From Sphingomonas edaphi (GTDB taxonomy: Bacteria; Pseudomonadota; Alphaproteobacteria; Sphingomonadales; Sphingomonadaceae): a stretch of 64,000 nt of DNA. A program made the translations under genes and the position numbers. Below, one piece after another: positions 54,925-60,286 of the stretch. The notes under the pieces were generated by a model that was not told the DNA's origin, made no database searches, and saw only the letters and a program-made list of their open reading frames with translations. Location: the NCBI RefSeq assembly GCF_003583725.1, contig NZ_QXTF01000002.1:310001-374000 (forward strand). The letters are read 5' to 3'. Position 1 is the stretch's first letter; each line of letters starts with the position of its first letter.

Positions 54925-56261
<1,337 letters not shown>

Positions 56262-56377
56262 GCCGGCGTCAGCTGGCGCTCGCACGGAATTCTTGGGATC
56301 CATGCAACACACGACAAGCCTAGCGAAGCAGGCGCCACGCTCGTAAAGGAAGCTGAACAGCTTTCAGGAACGAGTCT

Positions 56378-58264
56378 ATGGCTTCGGCCACCCACACCAT
56401 TACCGAAGAAGAATCCCAGGCCCACCCGATGCTCGACGCAATGGTCGTGCGCTTCGCGGGCGACAGCGGCGACGGTATGCAGCTGACCGGCGGTCAGTTC
56501 ACGCTTTCGACCGCCCTTGCGGGTAACGATCTTGCGACCTTCCCCGACTTTCCGGCCGAAATCAGGGCGCCGCAGGGCACCACGTTCGGGGTGTCCGCAT
56601 TCCAAATCAACTTCGGATCGACCGCAATTGAAACTGCCGGCGACCAGCCGGACGTTTTGATCGCGATGAACCCCGCGGCGCTCAAGGTGAACGTGAACGC
56701 GCTTCGCGAGGGTGGTTTGATTATTGTCGACGAAGGGGAGTTCTCGCCCCGCAACCTTGCCAAGGCCGGCTACGACGCCAACCCGCTGGAAGACGGCAGT
56801 CTGGCGAAGTGGAACCTTGTCCATTTCAACATCTCGCAGCTGACGCTCGATGCCGTGAAGCCGTTCGGTCTCGGTAACAAGGAGGCACTGCGCTGCAAGA
56901 ATATGTGGACGTTGGGCCTTGCGCTCTGGATGTTCGACCGCGAACGCGGCCCCATTATTGACTGGCTGAAGACCAAGTTCGCGAAGGCGCCCGAACTTGC
57001 GGAGGCGAACATTGCCGCATTGAACGCCGGTCACGCCTATGGCGAGACGGTCGAGATCGGCGGCCAAGTCCATAAGCACCATATCGACGCGGCACCTGCG
57101 GAGCCTGGTCTTTACCGCACAGTGACCGGAGCGGAATCGCTGTCGCTGGGCCTGATCGCTGGCGCGCAGTTGGCAGGCCTGCCGATGTTCTTCGGCGGCT
57201 ATCCGATTACGCCGGCATCGGCGATCCTTCACCATCTGTCGCGGCTCAAGGAATATGGGATCACCACGTTCCAGGCGGAGGATGAAATCGCAGCAATCTG
57301 CGCTGCAATCGGGGCCAGCTATGCCGGGCAACTCGGTGTAACGTCATCGTCCGGCCCGGGCATCGCGCTCAAAGGCGAGGCAATGGGCCTGGCCATTATG
57401 ACCGAGCTTCCGCTGGTCATCGTCAATTCGCAGCGTGGCGGCCCGTCGACTGGCTTGCCCACGAAGACCGAGCAGTCCGACCTTTATCAAGCCGTCTATG
57501 GCCGCAACGGAGACGCGCCGATGCCGGTGATTGCCGCCCGATCGCCTGCCGACGCTTTTGATTGCGCGATCGAGGCGGTGCGGATCGCAACTCGTTACAT
57601 GACTCCCGTTATGCTGCTGACCGACGGCTATATCGCCAATGCGGCCGAGCCGTGGAAGGTGCCGGACATGGGCGGGTACGAGCCTTTCCCCGTCGAATTC
57701 GCTGAGGGCTCCGCGATGGAGCCGGATAATGACCAAGTCATGCCCTACCGGCGCAATGCCGACCTCGCGCGGCCGTGGATCAAGCCGGGCACGCCGGGTC
57801 CTGAGCATCGCATCGGCGGTATCGAAAAGCAGCCAGGCACCGGTAACATCGACTATTCGCCGGAAGCTCATGCGGAAATGACGCGACTTCGCGCTGCAAA
57901 GGTGGATGGGATTGCCGAGTCTATCCCTGAGCAGGAGGTCTGCATCGGTAATTGGTCGGGCAAACTTGCCGTGGTGGGTTGGGGCTCGACTTTCGGTCCG
58001 ATTCACCAGGCGGTTCGCCGGGCGCGGATGCGCGGACTGGACGTCTCGCACATTCACATTCGCCACATCGCTCCGATGCCGCGGAACATGTCTGTCCTGC
58101 TCAAGGGCTTCGAGCGCATCATCGTGCCGGAAATGAACACCGGACAGCTGAAAACCGTACTTCGTGATCAGTTTCTGGTCGATGCGAAGCCGCTCAACAA
58201 GGTGTCGGGCCACCCGTTCCGTATCGCGGAAATCGAAGCCGCAATCGAGGCGGCGTTGGCATGA
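56378..58264 (+). CDS. korA: 2-oxoacid:ferredoxin oxidoreductase, fused gamma-alpha subunit
   Basis: This 628-residue subunit belongs to a 2-oxoglutarate (or related 2-oxoacid) ferredoxin oxidoreductase that forms the acyl-CoA, CO2 and reduced ferredoxin. The N-terminal gamma domain (about 25-190) contains RFAGDSGDGMQLTGGQFTLS and FPAEIRAPQGTTFGVSAFQI. The alpha, pyrimidine-binding TPP domain (about 225-450) contains GGYPITPASAILHHLSRL and TSSSGPGIALKGEAMGLAI, and a C-terminal domain ends the protein. The gamma-alpha fusion is usual for the proteobacterial KorAB type. The ATGA at its stop is the start of a microprotein gene, then korB. Confidence 0.9.
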   Translation: MASATHTITEEESQAHPMLDAMVVRFAGDSGDGMQLTGGQFTLSTALAGNDLATFPDFPAEIRAPQGTTFGVSAFQINFGSTAIETAGDQPDVLIAMNPAALKVNVNALREGGLIIVDEGEFSPRNLAKAGYDANPLEDGSLAKWNLVHFNISQLTLDAVKPFGLGNKEALRCKNMWTLGLALWMFDRERGPIIDWLKTKFAKAPELAEANIAALNAGHAYGETVEIGGQVHKHHIDAAPAEPGLYRTVTGAESLSLGLIAGAQLAGLPMFFGGYPITPASAILHHLSRLKEYGITTFQAEDEIAAICAAIGASYAGQLGVTSSSGPGIALKGEAMGLAIMTELPLVIVNSQRGGPSTGLPTKTEQSDLYQAVYGRNGDAPMPVIAARSPADAFDCAIEAVRIATRYMTPVMLLTDGYIANAAEPWKVPDMGGYEPFPVEFAEGSAMEPDNDQVMPYRRNADLARPWIKPGTPGPEHRIGGIEKQPGTGNIDYSPEAHAEMTRLRAAKVDGIAESIPEQEVCIGNWSGKLAVVGWGSTFGPIHQAVRRARMRGLDVSHIHIRHIAPMPRNMSVLLKGFERIIVPEMNTGQLKTVLRDQFLVDAKPLNKVSGHPFRIAEIEAAIEAALA

Positions 58265-58347
58265 AACCAATCAATCCTGTGCCCCTGATCGCCATGTTAC
58301 TGCTGGTGATCTTCCTGTATCTCTGGCTCAACGGCTACCTCGCATGA
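58261..58347 (+). CDS. 28-residue single-span membrane microprotein between korA and korB
   Basis: A short frame starts at the ATG that overlaps the korA stop (ATGA) and ends in a TGA that overlaps the korB start (ATGA). The encoded peptide begins MKPINPVPL and is a single hydrophobic segment (IAMLLLVIFLYLWLNGYLA), long enough to span the membrane. Overlap on both sides means the ribosome could pass from korA to the peptide to korB. The frame fills the korA-korB gap exactly, as selection for a real gene would produce. I know no described protein of this kind. A role in anchoring the oxidoreductase to the membrane is speculation. Confidence 0.6.
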   Translation: MKPINPVPLIAMLLLVIFLYLWLNGYLA

Positions 58348-59357
58348 ACGATGTTACCAAGATCACGACCGCCAAGGACTGGGCATCCGACCAAGAGGTT
58401 CGCTGGTGTCCGGGTTGTGGCGATTATGCGGTGCTGAAGGCGGTTCAGCGGACCATGCCGGACCTTGGAGTTGCGCGCGAAAAGACCGTGTTCATTTCGG
58501 GCATCGGCTGCTCCAGCCGCTTTCCGTATTACATGGCCAGCTATGGCTTCCACACGATCCACGGCCGCGCTTGCGCCGTCGCAACGGGAACCAAACTGGC
58601 CAATCCGGAACTCGACGTATGGATCATCACTGGCGATGGTGACGCGTTGTCGATCGGCGGCAACCACACGATGCACTTGCTGCGCCGCAATCTCGATTGC
58701 CAGCTGCTGCTGTTCAACAACGAAATCTATGGCCTGACCAAGGGTCAGTATTCGCCGACTTCCCGAGTCGGAACGCGCACTCCTTCGACGCCATTCGGCT
58801 CGGTCGATCGGCCGGCCAATCCGTGCGCCTTCGCGCTGGGCAGCGGTGCCCGCTTCGTCGCACGTGGCATCGACGTGCACAAGAATCTGCCCGACGTGTT
58901 GAAGGCGGCGCATGCCCATCGCGGTGCGAGCTTCGTAGAAATCTACCAGAATTGCGTAGTCTACAATGACGATGTGTTCGCGCCCTTCACCGACAAGTCT
59001 GTCGCTGCGGACAAGCAGCTCTGGCTGAAGCCGGGTGAGAAGATGCTCTACGCCAATGGCACTAAGGGCCTCGCGCTCGACATGGAGCAGCACATGCTGA
59101 AGGTGGTCGACGGCGACAGCGACGAAGTTATCGTCCACAACCCCAAAAACCGCGCGGTCGCACATATGCTGGTCGAGATGCCGGTTGCGAGCTTCCCGGT
59201 GGCGCTCGGCGTTCTCTACGAAGACCCGGCGCCGACATTCGACAGCGCAGTGATCGGGCAGAACGCCGCCGCTTCGGCCGGCAAGAAGCCTGACCTGCAA
59301 GCCTTGGTCAGCAAGGGCCAGACTTGGCAGGTCGAAAAGGAACCGCGCGCTGAATAG
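58344..59357 (+). CDS. korB: 2-oxoacid:ferredoxin oxidoreductase, beta subunit
   Basis: The 337-residue beta subunit binds thiamine diphosphate and the [4Fe-4S] cluster. Four cysteines suited to the cluster are C22 and C25 (RWCPGCGDY), C56 (GIGCSSRFPYY) and C203 (EIYQNCVVYNDD). The TPP/Mg motif is WIITGDGDALSIGGNHTMH followed by FNNEIYGLTKGQYSPTS, and VEIYQNC lies in the cluster-binding loop. The start codon overlaps the stop of the 28-residue microprotein gene (ATGA). It pairs with korA; ferredoxin is the likely acceptor, but no ferredoxin gene lies nearby. Confidence 0.94.
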   Translation: MNDVTKITTAKDWASDQEVRWCPGCGDYAVLKAVQRTMPDLGVAREKTVFISGIGCSSRFPYYMASYGFHTIHGRACAVATGTKLANPELDVWIITGDGDALSIGGNHTMHLLRRNLDCQLLLFNNEIYGLTKGQYSPTSRVGTRTPSTPFGSVDRPANPCAFALGSGARFVARGIDVHKNLPDVLKAAHAHRGASFVEIYQNCVVYNDDVFAPFTDKSVAADKQLWLKPGEKMLYANGTKGLALDMEQHMLKVVDGDSDEVIVHNPKNRAVAHMLVEMPVASFPVALGVLYEDPAPTFDSAVIGQNAAASAGKKPDLQALVSKGQTWQVEKEPRAE

Positions 59358-59385
59358 GCGGTTCAGCGGGGGAGGTGACTGTCTG

Positions 59386-59757
59386 ATGGCGGATGTGAAA
59401 GCGGCTGAAGCGCCCAAAAAGAAAAAAAAGAAGGATGCTGCCGCCAAGGGCGCCAGCGTCAAGAGCAAAGCCGCATCTTCCAAGAAAAAGGGCGGCAAGA
59501 ACAAAGCGGACGGTAAGGGCGTCGACGCGCTGCTGAAACTGGCCGATCATCCGCTGGTCGGCGACCTTCTGGCCGTCGGCGCGATGGCGGCTGTGGCCGC
59601 AATCGCTGAGGCCGGCTTTTCCGGCAAGAGCAAGGGCAAGACCAGCGGCTCGAGCAAGGCCGTAAAGGCTGCCGGCAAGGCCGCCGCCGCGGCGATCGGC
59701 AAGCGCCTGATCACCGAGTTCGAGGAAGTAAAGAAGGCTTCGAAGCCTAGCGCCTGA
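59386..59757 (+). CDS. Lysine/alanine-rich basic protein of unknown function
   Basis: A 123-residue protein 28 bases behind korB with a GGAGG ribosome binding site. The N-terminal half is a histone-H1-like run of lysine, alanine and serine (KKKKKKDAAAKGASVKSKAA and SSKKKGGKNKADGKG). A hydrophobic helical stretch follows (GDLLAVGAMAAVAAIAEAGF), then a second Lys/Ala segment (AVKAAGKAAAAAIGKRLI). Nucleic-acid binding or phasin-like, granule-associated behaviour are both compatible with the composition; I cannot choose. It converges on rsmD with an 11-base overlap. Confidence 0.7.
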   Translation: MADVKAAEAPKKKKKKDAAAKGASVKSKAASSKKKGGKNKADGKGVDALLKLADHPLVGDLLAVGAMAAVAAIAEAGFSGKSKGKTSGSSKAVKAAGKAAAAAIGKRLITEFEEVKKASKPSA

Positions 59758-60286
59758 GCAAGGTCAATCGGGCGCGGCCCACGTCGCGCACGGCATCGAT
59801 GGACCAGCCGTCCGGCGCGTCAACATCGTCGCCGCGCTTCGTTTCGATCGCCATCCAGCCGCCCTCGGCGAGCCAGCCTGCGGTGGCTACCGCCTTCGCG
59901 GCGGTACTGCCTGAGCCGGGTAAATATGGTGGATCGGCGAAGACCAGGTCGAACGGTTCGGACACTGGCAGCTTGGCGGCCGAGGTGGCCTTGATTGTGA
60001 GCCGGGTGCCAGCACCGAGGGACTCGGTATTGTGCTGGATGGCGGCGAGTGCGGCCCGGTCATTTTCCACCAGCGTGGCACGGCCCGCACCACGCGATAA
60101 AGCTTCGAATGCCAGCGCTCCGCTCCCGGCATAGAGATCAGCAACCCGCAGCCCGTCGAAGCTACCGAGCCGGCTCGCTAGCATGGAGAAAAGTGTTTCG
60201 CGTGTCCGGTCGGCGGTTGGACGCGTCTGCACCCCGGCGGGCGCCACCAGTTTCCGCCCTCGCCATTCGCCGGCGACAATTCTCAT
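59747..60286 (-). CDS. rsmD: 16S rRNA (guanine966-N2)-methyltransferase
   Basis: RsmD methylates G966 of 16S rRNA at the ribosomal P site. The 179-residue protein starts MRIVAGEWRGRKLVAPAGVQ and has TRPTADRTRETLFSML, the SAM-binding LRVADLYAGSGALAFEALSRG and the catalytic motif FADPPYLPG (DPPY). The ATG at 60286 is preferred over a longer frame because it overlaps the rluB stop by four bases (ATGA) and gives the family N-terminus. The rluB-rsmD order is common in alphaproteobacteria. Confidence 0.94.
   Translation of the reverse strand: MRIVAGEWRGRKLVAPAGVQTRPTADRTRETLFSMLASRLGSFDGLRVADLYAGSGALAFEALSRGAGRATLVENDRAALAAIQHNTESLGAGTRLTIKATSAAKLPVSEPFDLVFADPPYLPGSGSTAAKAVATAGWLAEGGWMAIETKRGDDVDAPDGWSIDAVRDVGRARLTLLRR

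Follow-up and report, generated by a model that had tools for sequence, protein, structure and literature searches.

Between korA and korB of the window (the whole 64,000-nucleotide stretch of DNA that was analysed) lies a small gene on the forward strand, 58261-58347, that would encode a 28-residue protein having a single hydrophobic stretch, MKPINPVPLIAMLLLVIFLYLWLNGYLA. Sequence comparisons indicate that this microprotein is conserved with KorAB across one genus plus some relatives. We give about an even chance to the reading that it would be made as a genuine single-pass protein of the inner membrane and would bind KorAB and work with it, its likeliest role being that of a small accessory subunit. 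The coordinates of the features are collected in Table 1.

Table 1 Predicted features of the korA-korB region (window coordinates)
Feature	Position	Strand	Basis
korA, alpha subunit, two-subunit 2-oxoacid:acceptor oxidoreductase	56378..58264	+	TIGR03710, PF01855, PF01558; 6n2n_A
Shine-Dalgarno-like GAGG in the korA 3' end, spacing suits the microprotein ATG	58247..58250	+	sequence, duplex energy
Microprotein gene, membrane type predicted, 28 aa	58261..58347	+	conservation, selection; ATGA common to korA, korB
Conserved N-terminal motif M-K-P-I-N-x-x-P-L-I	58261..58290	+	residue counts in 75 distinct sequences
Single transmembrane helix, predicted, about residues 9-24	58285..58332	+	Kyte-Doolittle
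korB, beta subunit, TPP-binding domain	58344..59357	+	PF02775, TIGR02177; 6n2n_B, 5b46_B

The flanking genes and the enzyme that they encode

The korA product matched TIGR03710 with 632 bits, above the cut-off of 482.75, and also matched PF01855 and PF01558; its closest solved structures by sequence were 6n2n and next 1yd7. The korB product gave 98.7 bits against PF02775 (cut-off 21.9) and 246.2 bits against TIGR02177, slightly under the cut-off of 261.9, and its closest solved structures were 6n2n, next 5b46/5b48 and 8ys5. By these matches the two genes are assigned to a KorAB-type two-subunit 2-oxoacid:ferredoxin oxidoreductase having a putative 2-oxoglutarate specificity; the name kor (2-oxoglutarate) was taken over from the preliminary description and says nothing of a measured substrate. 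Two-subunit 2-oxoacid:ferredoxin oxidoreductases are of the soluble type, and we presume from the family that KorB carries Fe-S. The genome that contains the window is 2.37 Mb, and the closest named relatives of its KorB are those of sphingomonads.

A role of KorAB as a substitute for 2-oxoglutarate dehydrogenase was rejected. Of the 71 genomes of the genus, 61 had a match to the E1 model of that enzyme, TIGR00239, that exceeded its cut-off, and hence KorAB is mostly an additional enzyme. Five genomes had larger fragments alone (G046, G052, G059, G061 and G066), four had weak matches alone (G016, G071, G074 and G075) and the profile search of the 71 genomes gave no match in G065. As to the neighbours, a gene of 345 residues that we take to be MreB-like lies directly upstream of korA (55224-56261), and directly downstream of korB (59386-59757) is a 123-residue protein rich in lysine and alanine that matched nothing in Pfam and exceeded the cut-off of no NCBIfam model.

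Conservation of the microprotein

Parsing succeeded for 196 of 198 loci, the other two being without korA, and showed the microprotein gene in 92, which gave 75 distinct DNA sequences. Alignment of these sequences, a set gathered by profile from which broken or strongly diverged copies may be missing, gave a gap-free core made up of K-[PQ]-I-N-x-x-P-L-I and a single hydrophobic helix, and columns 7-29 were without any gap. The lysine was present in 67 of the 75 sequences (arginine in 5 more), the asparagine in 62 and the proline in 69, and the leucine of the PL pair was found in 53 with methionine in 18 more; a leucine of the helix was found in 73. Column information was highest at columns 18, 13, 7, 21 and 10 (3.4-4.1 bits), and the N-terminal lysine, asparagine and proline ranked among the highest-information positions, ahead of the helix.

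Selection on the frame was estimated from disjoint nearest pairs, of which 36 of 37 were used (one was dropped for a pS of 0.7 or more). These pairs held 249 synonymous versus 315 non-synonymous differences and gave a dN/dS of 0.34 (p = 3e-23); shifted frames of the same DNA gave pN/pS values of 0.91 and 1.56. Pooling over 1,797 of 2,775 pairs (pS < 0.6) gave a dN/dS of 0.63, a weaker signal that probably comes in part from saturation. Frame-specific purifying selection together with the integrity of the frame indicates that the gene is protein-coding, and its translation may be presumed from this. The preliminary description had claimed a real gene for a single-helix microprotein coupled to korAB and had set a comparison of the korA-korB junctions of relatives as the test that could refute it. 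The claim came through that test: the small frame is conserved and under purifying selection, and its core is gap-free in the 75 distinct sequences gathered by profile.

An alternative would be that the frame is open merely by chance, in a gap rich in GC, given that short frames are common here (63 frames of at least 25 residues overlap a 5 kb stretch of the ORF listing). This explanation is refuted by the conservation of the frame in 92 loci (75 distinct sequences), by selection specific to that frame and by the lack of gaps in its core, and we regard it as scarcely credible.

The predicted helix is a consistent property of the family. The maximal Kyte-Doolittle mean over 19 residues ranged from 1.79 to 2.96, and a charged residue fell within the helix in only 2 of the 75 sequences. 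With the starts chosen the microproteins were 24-34 residues long in 90 of the 92 loci and 44 residues long in two. The N side of the helix was net positive in 69 of the 75 sequences and the charge of the C side was 0 in 40, +1 in 34 and -1 in one, values that weakly indicate an N-in topology. Among Pfam models the best match was DUF7859 at 13.3 bits versus a cut-off of 27, NCBIfam gave no match and the best PHROGs match had an E value of 0.15. The microprotein thus belongs to a new family of tiny proteins for which these three collections have no model.

Distribution and linkage to korAB

The genus was surveyed with profile A1 (23 homologues; microprotein threshold E <= 0.002) over 71 genomes and the result was compared with the presence of KorB in the same 71. 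KorB was present in 65 genomes and the microprotein in 64 of those 65, the sole KorB-bearing genome without it being G051. A genome with two KorB copies (G068) likewise had two microprotein copies, and the parsed loci placed the microprotein between korA and korB in 64/64 carrier genomes. The six genomes that lacked KorB also lacked the microprotein (Fisher p = 5e-8, a value that ignores relatedness). This joint absence says little, because one missing contig would remove both genes and all six assemblies are fragmented, each having at least some 100 contigs and a completeness of 69-97.

In an order survey of 396 genomes KorB (threshold E <= 1e-30) was found in 301, and microprotein profile A2 (30 rows) detected 35 genomes at E <= 2e-8, with the next match not before E = 0.003. 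The 35 carriers were 27 genomes of the genus and eight others from four genera (three each in g24 and g31, one each in g36 and g55), such that carriers span five genera in total, and in 8/8 carriers outside the genus the gene again lay between korA and korB. It was absent from the other g36 and g55 genomes that were fetched (loci L191 and L192; L177-L180). The microproteins of these outer groups are short and divergent, and their proposed homology rests on position plus a shared K-P-(4)-P-L-like pattern. Because 266 of the 301 KorB-bearing genomes of the order had no detected copy, KorAB as such does not need the microprotein.

A class sample of 385 genomes gave no credible further member, nor was a credible copy found away from korAB in the genus, order and class sets (71, 396 and 385 genomes, overlapping). 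Candidate copies elsewhere were rejected as weak matches, mostly parts of longer reading frames; the strongest (E 0.0012, in G730 of the class sample) was a 64-residue frame that matched part of the model in a fetched locus without KorB.

These surveys bear on the possibility that the membrane microprotein does something unrelated to KorAB, as in another respiratory or transport complex, and shares the korAB operon solely in order to be expressed. A free-standing function should relocate at times, yet no credible copy was found elsewhere in the genomes searched despite carriers in five genera. The persistence of korAB without the microprotein in G051 speaks for such independence, as does the finding that the korA-korB junction elsewhere holds unrelated genes, some of them soluble and without an obvious KorAB link (see below), and the joint absence from the six KorB-less genomes counts little against it, the assemblies being fragmented. 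We consider an independent function possible but doubtful.

Gain, loss and other occupants of the junction

When the carrier state was placed on a KorA-KorB tree (164 rows, quick method, 72 carriers; L018, L076 and L168 were skipped for in-frame stops, and near-identical or short loci plus L106, L108 and L109 were left out), six changes were needed, at least four of them forced by starred branches. Therefore, the microprotein gene has been gained and/or lost several times. An apparent loss is seen in the single-contig genome G051 (L175), in which korAB was kept and the microprotein is gone. Its korA stop is followed by CCC-ATG, exactly as is the microprotein stop in the relative L087, an arrangement consistent with a clean deletion between the short CGCTGA copies found at the korA and microprotein stops. 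The microprotein thus appears to be strongly kept in the genus yet not indispensable, because G051 keeps korAB after this apparently clean loss.

The junction was compared over 254 distinct sequences (L106, L108 and L109 were left out and the sample leans to close relatives). The microprotein was present in 75, and in 78 korA and korB overlapped by 4 or 1 nt; gaps were of 0-44 nt in 59, of 45-200 nt in 18 and of more than 200 nt in 24. Open frames in the larger gaps fell into 30 clusters, of which nine were left out as repeat-derived or doubtful. The remaining 21, sorted by hand according to hydropathy, were 10 integral membrane proteins, one exported protein and 10 soluble proteins. Soluble genes at the junction included those for isochorismatase, HicAB, DUF6678 and DUF6572. 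Because such genes also occupy the junction, position alone is no proof of partnership with KorAB. Two of the membrane inserts are likewise peptides with a single helix, 35 and 38 residues long (L060 and L258), and some multi-helix inserts recurred between loci (L056/L139, L076/L261 and L038/L235, the last at 40% identity, with L221 at 19%). None of ten membrane inserts that were scanned scored above a Pfam cut-off. Enrichment of membrane proteins among the inserts (10/21) is suggestive at best, with p = 0.035 versus an assumed background of 27% and p = 0.16 versus an assumed 35%.

In sphingomonads, small genes have thus been inserted repeatedly between korA and korB, and many of these genes encode membrane proteins. 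Inserts were seen at L010, L038, L048, L056, L059, L060, L063, L074, L076, L078, L127, L139, L215, L221, L229, L235, L250, L258, L261, L264, L276, L279, L294 and L295, and those at L215, L235 and L279 re-created ATGA-type overlaps on both sides.

A broader reading of these junctions would be that sphingomonad KorAB is membrane-tethered through a small membrane protein whose gene sits at the junction and which was gained, lost and replaced by unrelated small membrane proteins across genera. We put this forward as a speculation that is unlikely in its full form. The replacements would include the single-helix peptides of L060 and L258, much as CydX, CydY and CydZ share cyd operons. If true, the tether would point to where the ferredoxin-type KorAB delivers electrons in aerobes.

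Translational coupling of korA, the microprotein gene and korB

In the window the microprotein ATG at 58261 lies within an ATGA that holds the korA stop codon (58262-58264), and its TGA (58345-58347) lies within a second ATGA that holds the korB start at 58344. Both overlaps had been given in the preliminary description and are confirmed by the window sequence. The microprotein gene is thereby placed to join two translational couplings, one on either side of it. When the 75 distinct junctions were scored with alternative in-frame starts counted, the microprotein gene overlapped the korA stop in 46 and ended inside or no more than 4 nt from the korB start in 61; overlap with both korA and korB was found in 20 junctions and neither coupling in none (with the starts first chosen, both overlaps were seen in 25 of the 92 loci). 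In the remaining loci a short spacer, a repeat or an additional gene lies on one side. At L002, L004, L082, L085, L116, L150 and L166 extra, sometimes repeat-like, sequence lies between korA and an intact microprotein gene.

The Shine-Dalgarno duplex of the window's microprotein gene was -7.1 kcal/mol versus a korA background median of -2.9, and no Shine-Dalgarno sequence was found at the korB start (-1.7 kcal/mol). Hence, korB of the window probably relies on ribosomes that reinitiate once they have translated the small gene. Over the junctions, korB genes that directly overlap korA without a microprotein had a median of -8.0 kcal/mol (n=39), as against -3.8 (n=41) for korB behind a microprotein gene that reaches its start. 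The microprotein genes themselves had a median of -7.1 (n=42) when overlapping korA and -4.3 (n=33) when separated from it. These strengths fit in part a relay in which ribosomes reach korB by way of the small frame.

The preliminary description had offered a leader controlling korB as one explanation of the microprotein gene. In its strongest form the frame would serve only as such a relay, one that determines how much KorB is made, and the peptide would matter little or would act as a nascent chain in the ribosome tunnel. The coupling on which this rests stands: the korB Shine-Dalgarno sequences are weaker behind the microprotein than behind korA, those of microprotein genes overlapping korA are strong, 61 of the 75 genes end at or near the korB start and in the window korB has no Shine-Dalgarno sequence of its own. 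What does not stand so well is a peptide-indifferent leader, which is less likely because the amino acids are constrained beyond what the frame alone would require. Moreover, 19 of the 41 korB starts (46%) attain -5 kcal/mol nonetheless, the 41 as a set exceed the background of -2.9 in strength (p = 1e-4), and in 3 of the 75 junctions a further gene separates the microprotein gene from korB, yet the frame is kept (L089/L122, L127 and L139). Arrest peptides that act in the tunnel need conserved C-terminal residues at the stall site. The microprotein shows the reverse pattern, with columns 29 and 31 near its C-terminus the least informative among columns 6-31 (1.23 and 1.27 bits) and the N-terminal lysine, asparagine and proline high. 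A structured RNA leader was rejected, as folding of the junction RNA (58215-58385) was not unusual (z-score -0.09) and no Rfam family matched within 56000-60000. We therefore consider it rather improbable that the relay is the whole explanation; it is probably an additional effect of the gene arrangement beside a proposed role of the microprotein as an accessory subunit.

A model for the microprotein

An accessory subunit or anchor of KorAB, the latter already suggested in the preliminary description, is the reading that we favour, because it explains the linkage, the residue conservation, the membrane helix and the coupling together. According to this model the GAGG near the end of korA would be the Shine-Dalgarno sequence for translation of the microprotein, and termination-reinitiation at the second ATGA would give three proteins from one stream of ribosomes. 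The N-terminal tail, K-P-I-N-x-x-P, would contact KorAB and the helix would sit in the membrane, such that the otherwise soluble KorAB would be placed beside a membrane redox partner. Translation, membrane insertion, topology, KorAB binding and a redox role are what we infer from sequence. The 2009 report on KorAB of the aerobe M. tuberculosis states that the electron acceptor was not identified, and its authors suggested membrane association (PMC2773412). A membrane peptide conserved together with korAB would give a concrete and removable handle on the electron-acceptor question in soil sphingomonads.

Comparison with known systems

The enzyme that the microprotein may serve is of a familiar type, the two-subunit oxidoreductases of 6n2n, 5b46, 5b48 and 8ys5 being of the same type as the window's KorA and KorB. 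For Sulfolobus tokodaii, the structures are reported to consist of two alpha-beta heterodimers (PMC5020499). A search of the literature by titles and the starts of abstracts, subscription papers and preprints being outside its scope, found no small membrane protein linked to korAB.

Two kinds of translational arrangement resemble that of the microprotein gene. Termination-reinitiation pairs as described in PMC6728339 and PMC10666635 have an ATGA junction and a Shine-Dalgarno sequence inside the upstream gene, as here, and the latter source reports that genes for subunits of heteromeric complexes are enriched in short overlaps, which is in favour of an accessory subunit. Unlike the usual ATGA pairs, the microprotein gene links two such junctions. 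The axe-txe minigene and leader peptides are likewise very short frames that influence translation of a neighbour (PMC8708949), but the microprotein differs from these in being a predicted membrane peptide conserved in sequence and having a constrained N-terminus.

A close parallel is provided by cytochrome bd, which is itself an integral membrane complex. Its small protein CydX (and CydY and CydZ) is encoded, as in the present case, in the operon of the enzyme served and has few conserved residues; other small proteins are reported to occur in cyd operons that lack CydX (PMC4325964). The microprotein resembles CydX-like subunits in its predicted form, under 50 residues with one helix, and in its co-occurrence with the enzyme (64/65 KorB genomes of the genus and 8/8 carriers outside it), and by this analogy it is perhaps a CydX-like membrane accessory or anchor of KorAB. 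Unlike cydX, the microprotein gene lies between the subunit genes of the enzyme, and no sequence relation is claimed. Small operon-encoded membrane proteins such as CydX in cydAB operons are thus familiar. What is new is a predicted membrane microprotein tied to a ferredoxin oxidoreductase held to be soluble, which it would bind, and encoded between the genes for the two subunits of that enzyme.
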